Shown one piece after another: positions 17,382-63,008 of a DNA stretch of 64,000 nucleotides. Each line of letters opens with the position of its first letter. The first letter of the stretch is position 1. The stretch lies in NCBI GenBank assembly GCA_947623205.1, contig CANQGM010000002.1, positions 121,410 to 185,409 of the forward strand, read 5' to 3'. The position numbers and the translations under genes were made by a program. Under the pieces are notes generated by a model. That model searched no databases and was not told the DNA's origin. It saw only the letters and a program-made list of their open reading frames with translations. Origin of the DNA: an uncultured Clostridia bacterium (lineage in GTDB: Bacteria; Bacillota; Clostridia; Oscillospirales; Acutalibacteraceae).

Positions 17382-17455
17382 TGTGGAATAGTGTAACGGT
17401 AGCACGACAGACTCTGACTCTGTTTGTTGGGGTTCGAATCCCTATTCCACAGCCA
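17382..17455 (+). tRNA. tRNA-Gln (anticodon CTG)
   Basis: 74 bases including encoded CCA. The acceptor stem TGTGGAA pairs with TTCCACA, discriminator G, T arm GGGGTTCGAATCCC, anticodon stem ACAGA/TCTGT with loop CTCTGAC, anticodon CTG at 17414-17416. It reads CAG. Confidence 0.95.
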
Positions 17456-17461
17456 CATAAT

Positions 17462-17486
17462 AGCCCCGAATTTTCGGGGCTGTTTT
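17462..17486 (+). terminator. Terminator-like hairpin between the two tRNAs
   Basis: AGCCCCGAA (17462-17470) pairs with TTCGGGGCT (17473-17481), followed by GTTTT. The T-run is short, so it may attenuate rather than fully end transcription, or guide processing. Confidence 0.6.
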
Positions 17487-17491
17487 AAATT

Positions 17492-17568
17492 CGAGGTGTA
17501 GCGCAGTTTGGTAGCGCACATCGTTCGGGACGATGGGGTCGCAAGTTCGAATCTTGTCACCTCGACCA
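17492..17568 (+). tRNA. tRNA-Pro (anticodon CGG)
   Basis: 77 bases including encoded CCA. The acceptor stem CGAGGTG pairs with CACCTCG, discriminator A, anticodon stem CATCG/CGATG with loop TTCGGGA, anticodon CGG at 17526-17528. It reads CCG. No separate promoter is seen before it. Confidence 0.95.
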
Positions 17569-23406: not shown

Positions 23407-24267
23407 GTGTTTGGTTATTTGCAGGTTCAGAAAAGCGAGCTTTTGGTGCGTGAATTTGAAGCGTACAAAGCAGTGTACTGCGGCTTGTGCAAACAAATGG
23501 GAAAAGACTACTCGTTTTTAACCCGTTTCAGTTTAAGCTATGACTGCGCCTACTATGCAATGCTGTTAATGTCCTTTCACCGTTCTTGCAGCGGATTTAT
23601 AGACAGACGCTGTACTTTTAATCCTCTTAAAAAATGCAGGTTTGCTCTCACCGAATCTGACAGCTATGGCAAAGCGGCAGCGTTTTCTGTTATTTCGGCT
23701 TATTTTAAGCTGAAGGATGATATATCGGACAGCAGGCTTTTTAAGCGTATAATGTACAGAATGATTTTGCCGTTTTTTTCACACTGGCGCAAAAAGGCGG
23801 CAAAAAAATATGCCGATATTGATAACCTTATTTCACAAATGATGGACTTGCAGTATGAGGCGGAACATAATTTGGAGTGCTCGGTTGACAGGGCGGCACA
23901 TCCAACGGCCTTTTTGCTTGGAAACATATTTTCGCTTGAAGCAAAAGATGAAACAGACAGGCGTGTGCTTTATGAGTTTGGCTATCAACTCGGCAGGTGG
24001 ATATATCTTATAGATGCGGCAGATGATGTAGTTCAGGATAAAAAGAGCGGAAATTATAATCCTTTTATTGACAGCAACGGAAAAATTGCAAAAGTTGATT
24101 ATATTGCGGCAGTTTTAAATCAATCGTTGGCGCGCGCCTATGACGCATATAACCTTATAGACTTAACTGATTTTAAGGGTATTTTGGATAATATGATTTT
24201 AAAAGGTTTTCCGACTGTTCAAAATAAAATAACCGATAAACTTTACACGGAGGTAAAAAATGAATAA
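23407..24267 (+). CDS. DUF5685 family protein
   Basis: Function unknown. 286 residues starting at GTG with AAGGGAG eight bases upstream. The N-terminal [20 protein letters not shown] followed by [14 protein letters not shown] is the DUF5685 hallmark, with conserved cysteines (CGLC, SCSGF, RRCTF, KKCRF) that could bind metal. The helical second half contains [27 protein letters not shown], an Asp-rich arrangement reminiscent of all-alpha terpenoid-synthase-like metal sites, though this is only resemblance. Its last 8 bases overlap the J-domain gene, implying translational coupling. Confidence 0.82.
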
Positions 24268-24868
24268 TCCTTATGAGGTACTGGGTGTATCTGAAACGGC
24301 GTCCGATGAAGAAATTAAAGATGCGTACCGCAGGCTTGCAAAAAAATATCATCCGGACAATTACACAGACAGTCCTCTTTCTGATATTGCAGAGCAGAAG
24401 ATGAAAGAAATAAATGAGGCATATGACCAAATAAACCAAATTCGCCAAAAGGGCAGGGGAACCGGTTCTGCTGGCAGCGGTAATTATTCCGGAAACGGCT
24501 CAAGCTCTCAGTTTTACAGCGTAAGAATTTATATTCAGCGAAATATGATAGACCAGGCCGAGCAAATTCTTGATTCTGCTCCGCAGGGAAACAGAACTGC
24601 CGAATGGTTTTACCTGAAGGGAATGTGCGCTTACCGCAGAGGATGGTCGGAACAAGCGTTCAGTTACTTTACTACGGCATGCAATATGAACCCCGGTAAC
24701 GGAGAGTATCGCGCGGCATTGAACAATATGCAGAATCAGCGGGCGTACAACTACGGAGGCTATAATCAGACAAATGTCGGAAATCAATCAGATTGTACTT
24801 GCTGCGACATATGCACCACTATTATGTGTGCGGATTGTTTGTGTGACTGTTGCAGAATGGGATGCTGA
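24260..24868 (+). CDS. J-domain protein with C-terminal cysteine cluster
   Basis: Putative Hsp70 co-chaperone, 202 residues. The J-domain spans residues 3-60 with the essential HPD at 31-33. A Gly/Ser-rich linker (about 68-84) follows, then a TPR-like helical region ([16 protein letters not shown]...[21 protein letters not shown]) and a tail with 10 cysteines in the last 26 residues (CTCCDIC...CADCLCDCC). It lacks the G/F and zinc-finger arrangement of canonical DnaJ, so it is a specialised J-protein. The start overlaps the DUF5685 stop by 8 bases; GGAGG is present. Confidence 0.9.
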
Positions 24869-24870
24869 AA

Positions 24871-25425
24871 ATGAAAAATAACGGTATAAATAATTCAACT
24901 TTAAGAGTAGCATTGTGCGGTATAATTGCGGCGCTCTGTCTTGTTCTTATGATTATGACAGGATTGATACCTATAGGAACTTATGCATTTCCGTGCTTTG
25001 CTGGTATTTTTATTTCTGCCATTGTAATTGAATACGGATGTAAATGGGCGTGGGGAGTTTATGTTGTAGCCTCAGTTCTGTCTTTGTTTCTTGCCGCAGA
25101 CAAAGAAGCTGTAATTTATTTTATTATGCTTTTCGGATATTATCCTATATTAAAGGGTGTTATTGAGAACAAGGTAAAAAAAAGACTTTTTCAGTATATG
25201 CTCAAATTTATAATTTTTAATGCGGCTGCCGTTGCGTCATTTTTTGCAGGTACATTTTTGCTGTCAATTCCGGCAGAGGAATATACCTTATTCGGCATAT
25301 ATGTTCCATGGATATTTTTAATAATTGGAAACCTGTTCTTTTTGCTGTATGATTTTGCCGTATCTGTTTTTATAGCTCAGTATATACAGCGCATTAGAGG
25401 AAAAATTTTCAAAAAAAATAAGTAG
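24871..25425 (+). CDS. Polytopic membrane protein, unknown function
   Basis: 184 residues with about five to six membrane helices. Not recognised with confidence; the N-terminal pattern LRVALCGIIAALCLVLMIMTGLIPIG followed by short loops resembles S-components of energy-coupling-factor transporters, but no substrate motif is visible. The start is uncertain: ATG 24871 is taken, two bases after the J-domain stop, but ATG 24862 is also in frame and would overlap it. Coupled to the two upstream genes. Confidence 0.6.
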   Translation: MKNNGINNSTLRVALCGIIAALCLVLMIMTGLIPIGTYAFPCFAGIFISAIVIEYGCKWAWGVYVVASVLSLFLAADKEAVIYFIMLFGYYPILKGVIENKVKKRLFQYMLKFIIFNAAAVASFFAGTFLLSIPAEEYTLFGIYVPWIFLIIGNLFFLLYDFAVSVFIAQYIQRIRGKIFKKNK

Positions 25426-25531: not shown

Positions 25532-28222
25532 ATGAAACAAAAAGCCTTTACAAAAACTATATGTATTATTTTGGCAATAGCTTTTGTTGCGTCGGCAGTT
25601 TTTGTAGTTGCATCATCTTTTTCTTTTAATGCAGCTGTTATATCCGGCAATAAGACAAATTCAATATCCGCAAAACCTTCATCAGGTTCACATGGCTATG
25701 TAAATGGTGATTATGTTAATTTTCGCTCCGGTGCAGGCACAAATTATTCCGTCATAACAACTATGAGAAAAAACACTAAATTTATTTTTGTAGACGGAAA
25801 ACTGTATAATAACGACTGGTACAAAATTAAACTTGACTCTAATTTACAAACAGGTTACATAAATAAAGACTACGCTTCTGTATCAGATACGTCATCAAAT
25901 ACCAATACTACATATGTTAAACTCAACAAATCATCGTTAAATCTTGGTGTTGGCGAAAACTACACTCTTACAAAGTCTGTTTCTCCGTCAAATTCAAAAA
26001 CAGATTATAAATGGAGCAGCAGCAACACAAAGGCTGCAACCGTGAACAGCAATGGTTATATATCTGCAAAGAAAACCGGCACATCAAACATTACGGTTAA
26101 AATTTCCAACGGCAAGACGGCAACCTGTAAGGTAACGGTAAAATCCGCGCCTAAAAGCGTAAAGGTGAGTAGCTCAAGCCTGAAACTCGGCAAGGGAGAA
26201 ACATTTATAATTTCTGAAAGCACGAACAGCGGCTCTTATGCAAACAGCTTTAGCTGGAGCAGCAGCAATAAATCTGTTGCCACCGTTGAAAAAACCACGT
26301 CAAACAAGGCAAAAATCACCGCAAAAGCTGAGGGTACGGCTAAAATCACCATAAAAACTTACAACGGCAAAACAGCAGTCTGTAATGTAACGGTAAAATC
26401 CGCGCCTAAAAGCGTAAAGGTGAGCAATTCAAGCCTTACGCTTGACGTAAATAAAACCTTTGTAATTTCTGAAAGCACAAACAGCGGCTCTTATGCAAAC
26501 AGCTTTAGCTGGAGCAGCAGCAACACATCTGTTGCCACCGTTGAAAAAACCACGTCAAACAAGGCAAAAATTACGGCAATAGGTGAAGGCACTGCGACAA
26601 TTACCATAAAAACTTACAACGGCAAAACGGCAACCTGTAAAGTGACGGTAAAATCTCCGCCGTCAAGCATAAAACTCTCTGATACAAGTGAAACTCTTTA
26701 TAAGGGCAACTACTATACTGTTACCGCAACAGCGTCCGGCTCTGTAAAATGGAGCAGCTCAAACAATTCGGTAGCCACTGTTTCTAACGGTGTAATTTAC
26801 GCAAAATCCAACGGTACCGCTGAAATTAAGGCAACGTGCGGTTCTTCATCTGCAATCTGTGAAATTACCGTAAAGTCAGGCTCGGACGTTGATATTTCAA
26901 ACACAAAAGTATCCATAAGAAAAACCAAGTCAATTCTTCTTACCTCGTCAACAGGCGGAGTTAAATGGAATTCTTCAAATACTTCGATTGCAACTGTTAA
27001 TAACGGTATTGTCTACGCAAAAAATTCAGGTACCGCAGTAATAACCGCATACACTTCAAGCGGTGCGGCAACCTGTCTGCTGACTGTCGGAACCAGGGAC
27101 AACATTCGGTTTACTTACGCGTCGCCGAACTCTGCGCCGCTTAATTCTGCGGTTGATTTTAAGGCGATTACGGACACCGACAGAGTTGCAGTGCGTTTTG
27201 TAGTTACAAACGGTTCACAATCCTATACGGTTAATGCCGCCAAAAAAGAGAAAGACGGCAATACATATGTTTGGACAGGCACACAAAAGCTGTCAAAATC
27301 AGGCAAGTGGACTGTAAAAGCCTATGCAAAGTACAAAACTTCTAACGAATTTCTGACAACACCCGGAAACGGTGAGGGGGAAGTATTTGTTACTTCTTCA
27401 ACCGATAAAACAACTCCGGTATGCGCCGAACGCAGAGCAAGCGATGAGGTTATAAACCTTATCGCAAACTACGAGGGATTTTTATCTTCCGTTACGGCCG
27501 ACAGCATTACTTCTGACCCCACGTTGGGATACGGTAAGGTTGTAACATCAGGAGAACAATTTTATAATAATCTTACAAAAAATGAGGCGTATGCTTATCT
27601 TTGTCAAACTGTAAATAAAGGCGGCTACACTACAAGGACAAATAAATATCTTTTGGATAATGATATAAAGTTCAATCAGCGCCAGTTCGATTCGCTTGTT
27701 TGTTTTACCTACAATGTCGGAGCAGGTGTAATTTATAACGATTCAGAACTTCAGGCTGTTCTGCTTAATACAGGCAATAACTCAAGCATAAAAAAAGGTG
27801 CCGCAGGTTATGTTAATGCAAGTGATGTAAATCTTAGGAAAGGCTCCGGTACAAACTATGACGTTATAACTTGTATGCCTAAAAATACAAAATTTACATT
27901 TGTTGACGGTAAAGTATATAATTCCGATTGGTATAAAATAAAACTGTCAAACGGTACAACAGGATACATTTTCAAGTCTTACGCTTCTGTTTCAAGCGGT
28001 TCAAACGGTTCAAGAAATCTTAATAATGTTGATAAACAGCAGTATCTCAACGCATTTTTGCAGTATCATCATGCCGCGGGTTCATGTTATTGGGGACTTA
28101 TGTACAGAAGAATAGATGAGGCAGAAGTATTTTTCTACGGCGACTATGAACGAAACGGCGAATATAATAACCATAATTTTAAATTTACTTGTCAGTCGTA
28201 TAGTAATTTCAGTATAGCCTGA
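25532..28222 (+). CDS. Secreted multi-domain cell-wall protein: SH3b, Big2 repeats and lysozyme-like domain with an inserted SH3b
   Basis: 896 residues. Order: signal peptide or anchor (about 8-30), SH3b (about 55-118), five Big2 Ig-like repeats (about 128-204, 209-289, 294-374, 378-448, 458-520), another Ig-like segment (525-622), then a phage-lysozyme-like (GH24-type) domain. The first part of the lysozyme domain (637-747) holds the candidate catalytic Glu648 in NYEGF, DPTLGYGK and the NVG motif CFTYNVG; a second SH3b (758-820) follows, and the lysozyme domain then resumes with YWGLMYRRIDEAEVFFYGDY (853-872). SH3b domains bind cell wall. Likely a muralytic enzyme acting on the cell's own or a competitor's wall. 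Confidence 0.85.
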   Translation: MKQKAFTKTICIILAIAFVASAVFVVASSFSFNAAVISGNKTNSISAKPSSGSHGYVNGDYVNFRSGAGTNYSVITTMRKNTKFIFVDGKLYNNDWYKIKLDSNLQTGYINKDYASVSDTSSNTNTTYVKLNKSSLNLGVGENYTLTKSVSPSNSKTDYKWSSSNTKAATVNSNGYISAKKTGTSNITVKISNGKTATCKVTVKSAPKSVKVSSSSLKLGKGETFIISESTNSGSYANSFSWSSSNKSVATVEKTTSNKAKITAKAEGTAKITIKTYNGKTAVCNVTVKSAPKSVKVSNSSLTLDVNKTFVISESTNSGSYANSFSWSSSNTSVATVEKTTSNKAKITAIGEGTATITIKTYNGKTATCKVTVKSPPSSIKLSDTSETLYKGNYYTVTATASGSVKWSSSNNSVATVSNGVIYAKSNGTAEIKATCGSSSAICEITVKSGSDVDISNTKVSIRKTKSILLTSSTGGVKWNSSNTSIATVNNGIVYAKNSGTAVITAYTSSGAATCLLTVGTRDNIRFTYASPNSAPLNSAVDFKAITDTDRVAVRFVVTNGSQSYTVNAAKKEKDGNTYVWTGTQKLSKSGKWTVKAYAKYKTSNEFLTTPGNGEGEVFVTSSTDKTTPVCAERRASDEVINLIANYEGFLSSVTADSITSDPTLGYGKVVTSGEQFYNNLTKNEAYAYLCQTVNKGGYTTRTNKYLLDNDIKFNQRQFDSLVCFTYNVGAGVIYNDSELQAVLLNTGNNSSIKKGAAGYVNASDVNLRKGSGTNYDVITCMPKNTKFTFVDGKVYNSDWYKIKLSNGTTGYIFKSYASVSSGSNGSRNLNNVDKQQYLNAFLQYHHAAGSCYWGLMYRRIDEAEVFFYGDYERNGEYNNHNFKFTCQSYSNFSIA
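26144..26653 (+). repeat. Tandem 255-bp near-identical repeats encoding Big2 modules 2 and 3
   Basis: Two copies, 26144-26398 and 26399-26653, with period 255 bases (85 residues). Runs such as CGCGCCTAAAAGCGTAAAGG recur exactly, as do the codons for SGSYANSFSWSSSN. This is an in-frame recent duplication prone to copy-number change. Confidence 0.85.
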
Positions 28223-28253: not shown

Positions 28254-29054
28254 ATGAAGAAAATAGGTTTTATCGGCGCAGGCAATATGGCTACTGCAAT
28301 TATAAAAGGTTTATTATCACAAAATAACGGCAATCCTGAACTTGTCAATGTGTTTGATTTAAGCGTTGAAAAGTGTGATATTATTAAAAAAATGGGTGTT
28401 AATGTCTGCAAAACCGGCGTTGATGTTATGAAGAACAGCGACATAATAGTTCTTGCGGTAAAACCGCAGAACTATTCAGAGGTTTTGGAGGAACTAAAAA
28501 ATGACGTGACCCCCGACAAAACATTTGTTTCAATTGCCGCGGGTATCTCAATTGAATTTGTAAGAAACAGTCTTAACTGCAATTGTCCTGTCGTTCGTGT
28601 TATGCCAAACACACCGCTATTGTTAAAAAAAGGAGCTACTGCGCTCTGTCCCTCCGATAATATAAGCGATGAGGACAAACAGATAGTATATGATATGTTT
28701 GCAGGCAGCGGTATATGTGAATATATATCGGAAGAACATATGAACGAAGTCATAGCAGTTAACGGCAGCAGCCCTGCGTATATTTATCTGTTTGCAAAGG
28801 CAATGGCCGAATATGCCGAGAATCACGGCATTGAGTATAACAAGGCTATGAATTTAATTTGCGCCGCTCTTGAGGGTTCAGCCGCTATGCTGCGAGAAAG
28901 CGGCGACAGTGCCGACATACTTATTGAAAAGGTAAGTTCAAAAGGCGGCACTACAATAGCCGCTCTTGAAAAACTCAGAGAGCACGGATTTTATAAAGCT
29001 GTTCAGGATGCAATGGACGCCTGCACAAAAAGAGCAGAGGAACTTGGCAAATAG
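28254..29054 (+). CDS. proC: Pyrroline-5-carboxylate reductase
   Basis: Last step of proline synthesis, reducing pyrroline-5-carboxylate with NAD(P)H. The 266 residues match the family. N-terminal Rossmann motif GFIGAGNMATAIIKGL (residues 4-19), the VLAVKPQNY segment, VRVMPNTPLLLKKGATAL, and the C-terminal signature VSSKGGTTIAALEKL are all present. AAAGGTT lies before the ATG. No other proline genes are adjacent; a terminator-like hairpin follows. Confidence 0.96.
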   Translation: MKKIGFIGAGNMATAIIKGLLSQNNGNPELVNVFDLSVEKCDIIKKMGVNVCKTGVDVMKNSDIIVLAVKPQNYSEVLEELKNDVTPDKTFVSIAAGISIEFVRNSLNCNCPVVRVMPNTPLLLKKGATALCPSDNISDEDKQIVYDMFAGSGICEYISEEHMNEVIAVNGSSPAYIYLFAKAMAEYAENHGIEYNKAMNLICAALEGSAAMLRESGDSADILIEKVSSKGGTTIAALEKLREHGFYKAVQDAMDACTKRAEELGK

Positions 29055-29067
29055 AGTTTCATAAACT

Positions 29068-29123
29068 AAAAACATTCCGCATACGTTTTAAAGGGACAAC
29101 CTGAAAACGAAAGGAATGTTTTT
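29068..29123 (+). terminator. Hairpin after proC that overlaps the next ribosome-binding site
   Basis: Perfect 11-bp arms, AAAAACATTCC (29068-29078) and GGAATGTTTTT (29113-29123), loop 34 bases. The U-rich 3' arm suits termination of proC, yet AAAGGA of the next gene overlaps the same arm. Third case of this design in the window. Confidence 0.55.
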
Positions 29124-29124
29124 T

Positions 29125-29796
29125 ATGAAAGGTGTAGTATTTTCGTTAAAGAAATCTGATTTTGCCAGAAGAAATCGCAGAAAAATAACAGTTTCCGATC
29201 TGCGTTATTTTTTTAAGCGGTACGGAGTAATGGTTATGTGCGTTACGCTTCTTTTTGCCGGACTGATATTTGGTTCTGCCTATGCGCAAAATTCCACTTC
29301 ATCTCTGCTTGATTCGCTTGATTTTTTATTTACCACAAACCTTGATGTGCGTCTGTCACAAAATGCCGCAGAAACATTCTGCGCGTGCTTTGCTTCAGAT
29401 TTTATATTTCTTTTTGTTGTATTTTTGCTCGGTCTTGCTCCTTGGGGAATACCGATGCTTTTATTTGTATTGTTTTTTAAAGGCTTTGGTACGGGACTCA
29501 CGGCGGGGTATCTTTATATGGCTCACTCTTTAAAAGGAGTTGGATTTTACCTGATTGTTTTGCTTCCGGGAACGTTTTTGTTCTGTATGGCGCTTTCACT
29601 GTTTTCGACATCGGCTTTTTATATATCAAAGCGAATGTTTTTTTATACAATAGGCCGTAATGTTCCTGCGCAGCCCCTTCGTAAAGGAGTTATAAATTTT
29701 TGCTCGCGTTCAATGTCGTCGCTTATTATGACATTTTTTTCCGCCCTGCTTGATGTTGTTTTATGGACATTGTTTGCCGGAGTATTTAATTTTTAG
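29125..29796 (+). CDS. SpoIIM-like membrane protein (stage II sporulation protein M family)
   Basis: 223 residues with about five membrane helices. The basic N-terminus (KKSDFARRNRRKITVSDL), the first helix near residues 33-53, and the loop LGLAPWGIPMLLFVLFFKGFGTGLTAGYLY are consistent with the SpoIIM/DUF95 family; SpoIIM recruits the SpoIID/SpoIIP wall-degrading complex during forespore engulfment. ATG 29125 is preferred over ATG 29116 because AAAGGA is then spaced nine bases away. It is followed 16 bases later by another membrane protein gene. Assignment is moderate. Confidence 0.55.
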   Translation: MKGVVFSLKKSDFARRNRRKITVSDLRYFFKRYGVMVMCVTLLFAGLIFGSAYAQNSTSSLLDSLDFLFTTNLDVRLSQNAAETFCACFASDFIFLFVVFLLGLAPWGIPMLLFVLFFKGFGTGLTAGYLYMAHSLKGVGFYLIVLLPGTFLFCMALSLFSTSAFYISKRMFFYTIGRNVPAQPLRKGVINFCSRSMSSLIMTFFSALLDVVLWTLFAGVFNF

Positions 29797-29812
29797 TCAT
29801 CGGAGGTTTATA

Positions 29813-30775
29813 ATGGCATCTGAGAAAAATATATTTGCTCTGTCTGACTTTTTTTCATCTTTATTTCATAATTTTCCGAAACTACTGTTTACAAATGTAT
29901 TGTTTGCGGTTCCTTTCGCCGTATTTTTCGGAATTTTTTGGTTTATAAATACAGCCTCGTCAATAAACTCAAACTTTATTTTATTTCTTACGGCAATTCC
30001 GCTGTTTCCGTTTTATGCGGGAGTTACACAGGTAACTTCGCATATGGCAAGAGGAGAAAAAGATGTTAAAGTTTTTCAGACCTTTATTAACGGAGTCAAA
30101 GAGAATTTTCTCAGATTTTTATTATACGGGTTTATTTTTTATGCCGCAATTTTTTTCAGTTATTATTCAATTATAATGTACTCCGGATTTGGAAGATATA
30201 ACAATGCGTTTTATGTTTTACTTGTTTTGTGCGTTATAATTTCGGTTTTTTTTCTGTTTGTATTTTACTATGTACCGCCTATGTCAGTTACCTTTGACCT
30301 TTCTGTCAAAAACATATTAAAAAACAGCGCGTTAATGACCTTTGGCGAGATAAAAAGTAATTTTATTGCAACATTCGGCTTATTTGTTTTGTTTCTTGTT
30401 TGTGCCACGGTACTGTTTTGCTGTAAATACGCTGCTGCAATAATAATTGCTACCGTTGTTCTTGCGCTTTTCTTTGTTCCGTCGCTTATGTCATTTATAA
30501 TTAATTCGTCAATATATAAAGCGATGTATTCTATGATTACGGGCAAGGATGAGAAAAGCACTGAAATTGATAAAAAAATAAAGAACCGAAAAAAAGGTCA
30601 GTTTTATGATAATTTTGAAGATAAAAAAAACAGCGTTGCGGAAAGCTTTGCCGGCTTAAAGGTTGACGAATCAAAAGACGGCGATGAATACATTTTTTAT
30701 AACGGAAGAATGATAAAGCGCAGCGTATTGATAAAGCTTAAAAAAGAGTCAGAAGAAAAAAAGGAGAATGAATAA
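29813..30775 (+). CDS. Polytopic membrane protein, DUF624/YesL-like
   Basis: 320 residues from ATG 29813 (GGAGG upstream; the longer track start lies inside the previous gene). About six membrane helices in the first 240 residues, then a charged cytosolic tail (about 245-320, many Lys/Glu) that contains DEYIFYNGRMIKRSVLIKLK. The order of helices and the PFYAGVTQVTSHMARGEKDV loop resemble DUF624 proteins of unknown function. Its stop lies 1 base ahead of the next ATG, so the two are coupled. Confidence 0.55.
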   Translation: MASEKNIFALSDFFSSLFHNFPKLLFTNVLFAVPFAVFFGIFWFINTASSINSNFILFLTAIPLFPFYAGVTQVTSHMARGEKDVKVFQTFINGVKENFLRFLLYGFIFYAAIFFSYYSIIMYSGFGRYNNAFYVLLVLCVIISVFFLFVFYYVPPMSVTFDLSVKNILKNSALMTFGEIKSNFIATFGLFVLFLVCATVLFCCKYAAAIIIATVVLALFFVPSLMSFIINSSIYKAMYSMITGKDEKSTEIDKKIKNRKKGQFYDNFEDKKNSVAESFAGLKVDESKDGDEYIFYNGRMIKRSVLIKLKKESEEKKENE

Positions 30776-62619: not shown

Positions 62620-62966
62620 CGAGTGTATTGAACAGCCGCGGGCAAGATCCGAAAGGATTTGTACGAGGAAAGTCCGGGCTTCACAGAGCAATAATAACGG
62701 CTAACGGCCGCCGGAGGCGACTCCAGGGATAGTGCAACAGAAAATGACCGCCAAATAATTTTTTGGCAAGGATGGAAAGGTGAGGTAAGAGCTCACCGGA
62801 GGTTGGGGAACCAATCTGCCGTGCAAACCCTATTTGAAGCAACACCGTGGTAGGACATTATGCGCTTGCTCGGCGCGTCCTTAGGAGGTGGCATTGAGCA
62901 GTTCCGGCAACGGACTGCCAAGATAAATGGCTGTTCACGACAGAACCCGGCTTACAGATACAGTCG
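62620..62966 (+). ncRNA. rnpB: RNase P RNA, class A
   Basis: Catalytic RNA that trims tRNA 5' ends. The hallmark conserved regions are present: GAGGAAAGTCCGGGCTTC near the 5' end, AGTGCAACAGAAAATGACCGCC in the middle, and ACAGAACCCGGCTTACAG at the 3' end. Stem P1 pairs 62620-62628 with 62958-62966 with one mismatch. The arrangement fits the ancestral A type, not the Bacillus B type. About 347 bases. Confidence 0.95.
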
Positions 62967-62967
62967 T

Positions 62968-63008
62968 AAAAACCCCCGTAACTTTTAGTTACGAGGGTTT
63001 ATTTTTTG
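62968..63008. terminator. Terminator of rnpB, shared with the minus-strand small gene
   Basis: AACCCCCGTAAC (62971-62982) pairs with GTTACGAGGGTT (62988-62999) with one C-A mismatch, then TATTTTTT; A-rich on the left, so usable both ways. Confidence 0.88.

Follow-up and report, generated by a model that had tools for sequence, protein, structure and literature searches.

An SH3b domain nested within the GH24 catalytic fold of a predicted secreted muramidase from one family of gut Clostridia

In the 64,000-nucleotide stretch of DNA analysed here (the window), which comes from a gut member of the Ruminococcus bromii group, an open reading frame of 896 amino acids, with its coordinates (25532-28222) and plus strand confirmed, most likely encodes, as judged from its sequence, a secreted muramidase of the GH24 (T4-lysozyme) type. 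The insertion of an SH3b domain into the GH24 catalytic fold of this protein is well supported by sequence comparison and by structural models. The layout of the protein is as follows:

25532-28222, plus strand: open reading frame for a secreted Big_2 / SH3b / GH24 protein with a nested SH3b (896 aa)
25532-25636, plus strand: putative signal peptide-like segment, hydrophobic and N-terminal, after a K-rich start (about residues 1-35; from hydropathy)
25694-25882, plus strand: N-terminal SH3b (about residues 55-117; Pfam SH3_3)
25910-27076, plus strand: five Big_2 (bacterial Ig-like) repeats (about residues 127-515; Pfam Big_2, five stretches)
27092-27406, plus strand: Ig-like stretch (about residues 521-625; from sequence comparison, no Pfam match)
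27437-27772, plus strand: GH24 part 1 (residues 636-747), with catalytic Glu648, Asp657 and Thr664 (Pfam, alignment and model)
27800-27994, plus strand: nested SH3b (residues 757-821; Pfam SH3_3 at 764-817; fold match to 2krs; low-pLDDT linkers on either side)
28019-28219, plus strand: GH24 part 2 (residues 830-896), the last helices of the fold, with the GL-RR-DE motif (alignment, model and plain homologues)

In the Pfam search, Phage_lysozyme (PF00959) matched residues 646-761 with 53.4 bits against a cut-off of 22.3, covering profile positions 2-108 of 125, and SH3_3 (PF08239) matched twice, the best match being at 764-817 and the other at the N-terminal copy. The GH24 catalytic positions were aligned with Glu648, Asp657 and Thr664, in order and at the usual spacing. 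The last ~65 residues of the product include HHAAGSCYWGLMYRRIDEAEVFFYGDY, and the second GH24 part ends in a short C-terminal extension carrying Cys887; this residue and Cys852, both in the tail, are invariant among close relatives and perhaps form a disulfide. The Ig-like stretch was also found ahead of GH24 in the shortest homologues. At the DNA level, two adjacent Big_2 repeats (26199-26418 and 26454-26673) are 88% identical at a spacing of 255, probably by recent tandem duplication.

Position of the SH3b domain relative to the GH24 fold

The first-pass annotation of this DNA had placed a break in the lysozyme-like domain near residue 747, followed by an SH3b domain (758-820) similar to the N-terminal one. 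The boundaries determined here, about 757-821, agree with that placement, and the two SH3b copies of the window protein are 73% identical. The same annotation had assigned the tail (833-896, with RR-DEAE-FFYGDY) to the C-terminal part of the GH24 fold, an assignment that is borne out by PHAb11 (9kbs), which has its LN-GD...FL-W-AGGK-GL-RR-E end at the place matching the tail of the window protein. Furthermore, the uninterrupted homologues that it had proposed to search for were found (L033-L041 and L043); in these, the parts matching 630-747 and 830-880 are joined directly, with the tail contiguous with the lysozyme part and no separate domain. In L034, L036 and L039 a single Phage_lysozyme match spans both halves and reaches position 125 of 125, whereas in nested proteins this match ends near the insert. 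Both GH24 halves hold residues that are invariant across the alignment of nested and plain proteins, among them the RR and E of the tail.

The number of residues between the GH24 halves fell into three classes, with none between them: -10 to 9 (110 loci, 69 of them viral), 77-95 (188 loci) and 146-159 (three loci, which carry two nested SH3b domains), these being counts of loci rather than species, with some genes present twice. A continuous catalytic chain is usual in GH24 enzymes, although the family definition does not demand it; in this clade the chain is interrupted, with 77-95 amino acids separating the halves. Since the same nesting recurs in 191 loci, some of which represent the same gene twice, it is not due to chance. 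From the alignment with PHAb11, the insertion point directly follows the LLN-GD segment and precedes the next helix, a position that we take to correspond to the loop of T4 lysozyme between C-lobe helices F and G. Because Glu648, Asp657 and Thr664 are in the N-lobe, the SH3b would be added on the opposite side of the cleft.

An AlphaFold2 model built from 59 sequences had a mean pLDDT of 88, with values of ~97 in the tail helices and low values in both linkers. It was superposed on 6et6, the uninterrupted muramidase of an A. baumannii prophage, with a TM of 0.76 (by target length) over 239 columns, spanning the SH3b and placing both halves; comparison with 8hp8, 4zpu and 3hde gave TM values of 0.67-0.70. 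A second AlphaFold2 model, of a protein 48% identical, had a pLDDT of 87 and a TM of 0.77 to 6et6. In both models the SH3b is looped out when the two GH24 parts are superposed on 6et6, and the fold of the nested SH3b matched 2krs (TM 0.71) and 2kt8 (TM 0.62). The first-pass annotation had named as adverse to its proposal a tail that does not pack with 637-747; instead, the flanking parts are modelled as one GH24 domain, and both halves are predicted to fold together as a single two-lobed domain of the T4-lysozyme type.

In this context, we considered it highly improbable that the domains simply stand side by side, with GH24 ending near residue 760, SH3b following, and 830-896 being a separate small domain that resembles the end of a GH24. 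Such an arrangement is what Pfam alone gives (GH24 at 646-761 followed by SH3_3, the layout of an ordinary GH24-SH3b endolysin), the tail by itself has no Pfam match, and the conventional order does exist in the viral contig locus L316. However, the GH24 of L316 is already complete before its SH3b starts, the plain homologues place the tail within the Phage_lysozyme profile, its RR and E are shared by both forms, and the models set both halves on 6et6; the uninterrupted homologues together with the models largely rule the side-by-side arrangement out.

Distribution, origin and conservation of the nested form

Among the sampled genomes, nested proteins were confined to the family to which the window belongs. 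For this family, 300 genomes were searched and the matches retrieved; a GH24 gene was present in 106 of them, and, as counted from the match listings, ~84 were nested, 8 were plain but fell in the same clade, and 14 belonged to other plain lineages. All 80 named genome matches were nested, including Ruminococcus bromii ATCC 27255, 5AMG and YE282, a species that we take to fall in Acutalibacteraceae according to GTDB. No full-length nested match was obtained outside the family among genomes sampled at the order (394), class (391) and phylum (399) levels, where only the first half was matched, and the GH24s retrieved from other families were plain. The nesting that the first-pass annotation had described as unusual is so across GH24s at large, but within its own lineage it is the rule.

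The insert was likewise absent from all 69 viral-contig GH24s in which both halves were resolved, and neither viral contigs nor 50,697 phage records yielded a nested form that would point to a phage or otherwise horizontally moving origin. One candidate for a nested phage endolysin, the 237-aa BFVD entry A0A8S5NUM4 (Siphoviridae sp. ctqrl18), aligned over its full length with the nested model, although at an rmsd of 13; this protein is probably conventional, with GH24 followed by SH3b, because the similar viral protein L316 has that order.

In a tree built from the catalytic domain after removal of the insert, all nested proteins formed one clade, with support of 99/97 against the outgroup, and five plain proteins were placed inside it. 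The minimum number of changes was 4, as was the 5-95% range over bootstrap trees, which on these sequences we read as one gain and three losses. The five plain GH24s (L033, L034, L039, L036 and L040) would thereby represent three secondary losses and constitute natural controls. As these three lineages lost the insert yet kept the catalytic residues, catalysis probably does not require the insert. L045, L046 and L042, which lie on two separate branches, carry a tandem pair of SH3b domains at this GH24 insertion site.

All 191 nested copies have the catalytic Glu and Asp, and 175 have the Thr, the Thr664 position being replaced in the other 16. Sequence comparison shows purifying selection on the insert as well as on the lysozyme part and the tail: between the window protein and 14 relatives, synonymous sites were near saturation and pN was 0.07-0.24 in the three parts.

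The best match of a nested SH3b was another nested SH3b in 148 of 151 cases, and that of an N-terminal SH3b was another N-terminal one in 318 of 322, so that the nested copy is a long-term resident. Recent replacement of the nested SH3b by the N-terminal copy was considered, and the pairing of nested with nested copies across species stands against it; a test of homogenisation within proteins gave a weak signal (34 of 56). N-terminal SH3b domains varied in number from none to nine, and 26 of the 116 nested proteins had no other SH3b at all, the shortest architecture among these being a signal peptide, a Big_2-like region, an Ig-like region and GH24 with the nested SH3b. With the outer copies so variable, the nested SH3b seems to be the constant wall-binding element. 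The alignment shows some nested copies with an eroded form of the usual SH3b motif, and their ligand binding may therefore differ.

Gene neighbourhood and possible modes of action

The gene is flanked by conserved neighbours, as established by neighbourhood comparison:

23407-25425, plus strand: upstream conserved neighbours (DUF5685, DnaJ-TPR and a membrane protein)
28254-30775, plus strand: downstream conserved neighbours (proC, a SpoIIM-family protein and a DUF624-like (DUF624/MusI-like) membrane protein)

The order DUF5685, DnaJ-TPR, membrane protein, muramidase, proC, SpoIIM-like, DUF624-like was kept in most of 80 related loci (53-75 per gene, flanks being limited), which favours a vertically inherited housekeeping gene. 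Beyond these loci, the neighbourhood was partly kept in four other genera and not in most of the clade. A single GH24 gene and a single SpoIIM-family gene were found in the genome of the window. Elsewhere in the window, a class A RNase P RNA was located at 62620-62970, and tRNA-Gln and tRNA-Pro at 17382-17568.

Taken as a whole, the protein is very probably a secreted muramidase with a discontinuous GH24 domain and an SH3b in one of its loops, acting as a housekeeping wall hydrolase in which the SH3b holds peptidoglycan by the cleft. In the mechanism that we propose, both halves would fold into one normal GH24 domain, from which the SH3b would hang on two flexible linkers; the nested SH3b would probably bind peptide parts of peptidoglycan beside the C-terminal lobe and thereby hold the glycan strand at the cleft, where the MurNAc-GlcNAc bond would be cleaved by Glu648, Asp657 and Thr664. 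A tether or stalk may be provided by the Big_2 repeats together with the N-terminal SH3b, which is variable. The enzyme would likely serve the producing cell in housekeeping turnover of its wall or in the separation of daughter cells, and the target is likely the cell's own wall rather than that of others. Steering of the active site by the nested SH3b is plausible by analogy, being consistent with what SH3b domains do.

Other accounts of the insert have to be weighed against this proposal. It is possible, if rather doubtful, that an SH3b entered a tolerant loop by accident and has been kept by history, working like an ordinary terminal SH3b; a single gain with several losses and two independent doublings would fit such passive inheritance, as would the free variation in the number of outer SH3b domains. 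Nevertheless, the insert was kept in ~84 of the 92 sampled genomes carrying the clade's gene, it is under purifying selection, and 26 of 116 proteins have no SH3b besides it. We find it unlikely that the nested SH3b acts mainly as a gate or regulator, that is, as an allosteric or steric switch that opens and closes the cleft and couples catalysis to wall binding. Its attachment inside the C-lobe through two linkers, the long retention of one site and the lasting distinctness of nested from N-terminal copies would all suit a switch, whereas the low confidence of the modelled linkers suggests free movement, and the naturally occurring loss and doubling of the insert at this one site point to tolerance and not to a tuned device. 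A clamp, in which binding of a stem or bridge peptide to the SH3b would shift the C-lobe helices flanking the insertion and so couple catalysis to correct engagement of the wall, is given a similarly low probability; to our knowledge, such coupling has not been known as a control mode for GH24 enzymes. Overall, gating is less supported than steering.

A link between the muramidase and SpoIIM is possible, although there seems to be only a slim chance that the enzyme serves sporulation rather than vegetative growth, joining the SpoIIM-family protein encoded nearby in engulfment or in digestion of the mother-cell wall. Of the 80 related loci, 75 have the SpoIIM-family gene as the second gene downstream, and in the window this neighbour is the only SpoIIM of the genome; however, its proximity to the muramidase gene was restricted to the R. 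bromii group and a few other genera, most other genera with the nested enzyme lack the neighbourhood, and several bearers have genomes of ~1 Mb and may be asporogenous.

Relation to known wall hydrolases

The GH24 enzymes of phages and prophages (T4 lysozyme, P22, P21/R21 and 6et6) share with the window protein the Glu/Asp/Thr residues, the fold and the final RR-E helices, but they are without the insert (69 viral-contig cases), mostly small and without Big_2 stalks. The conventional GH24-SH3b phage endolysin at L316 has the same two domain types, but with the SH3b after a complete GH24. In TsGH24 of Trichophaea saccata (8b2s), an SH3-like domain has been proposed, from manual docking, to guide peptidoglycan into the active site (PMC10394673). 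Both this enzyme and the window protein pair GH24 with an SH3-like wall-binding domain, which in TsGH24 is N-terminal on a flexible linker (PMC10394673) and in the window protein is nested. The autolysin CpAcp of Clostridium perfringens, as summarised in its abstract, consists of a signal peptide, ten SH3b domains and then a catalytic domain, and is tied to cell separation (PMC8470621); it is, like the window protein, a secreted wall hydrolase with SH3b domains, and the abstract makes no mention of nesting.

No precedent for an SH3b or other wall-binding domain inserted in a GH24 or another wall hydrolase was found in the open-access literature, of which coverage was limited, so that one may exist. 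Both GH24 and SH3b are known domains; it is their nesting that differs and that seems not to have been described before.

The usual picture of a wall hydrolase is one of beads on a string, in which binding and catalytic modules follow one another along the chain; in this protein, one binding module sits within the catalytic one. The arrangement also reveals a tolerated insertion site in GH24 enzymes, apparently unused by lysin engineering. In brief, our data indicate that this nesting arose once and has been kept in most members since early in one family of gut Clostridia, and the existence of relatives that lost the insert, and of others with two inserts, makes the effect of nesting on activity and specificity directly testable with natural controls.
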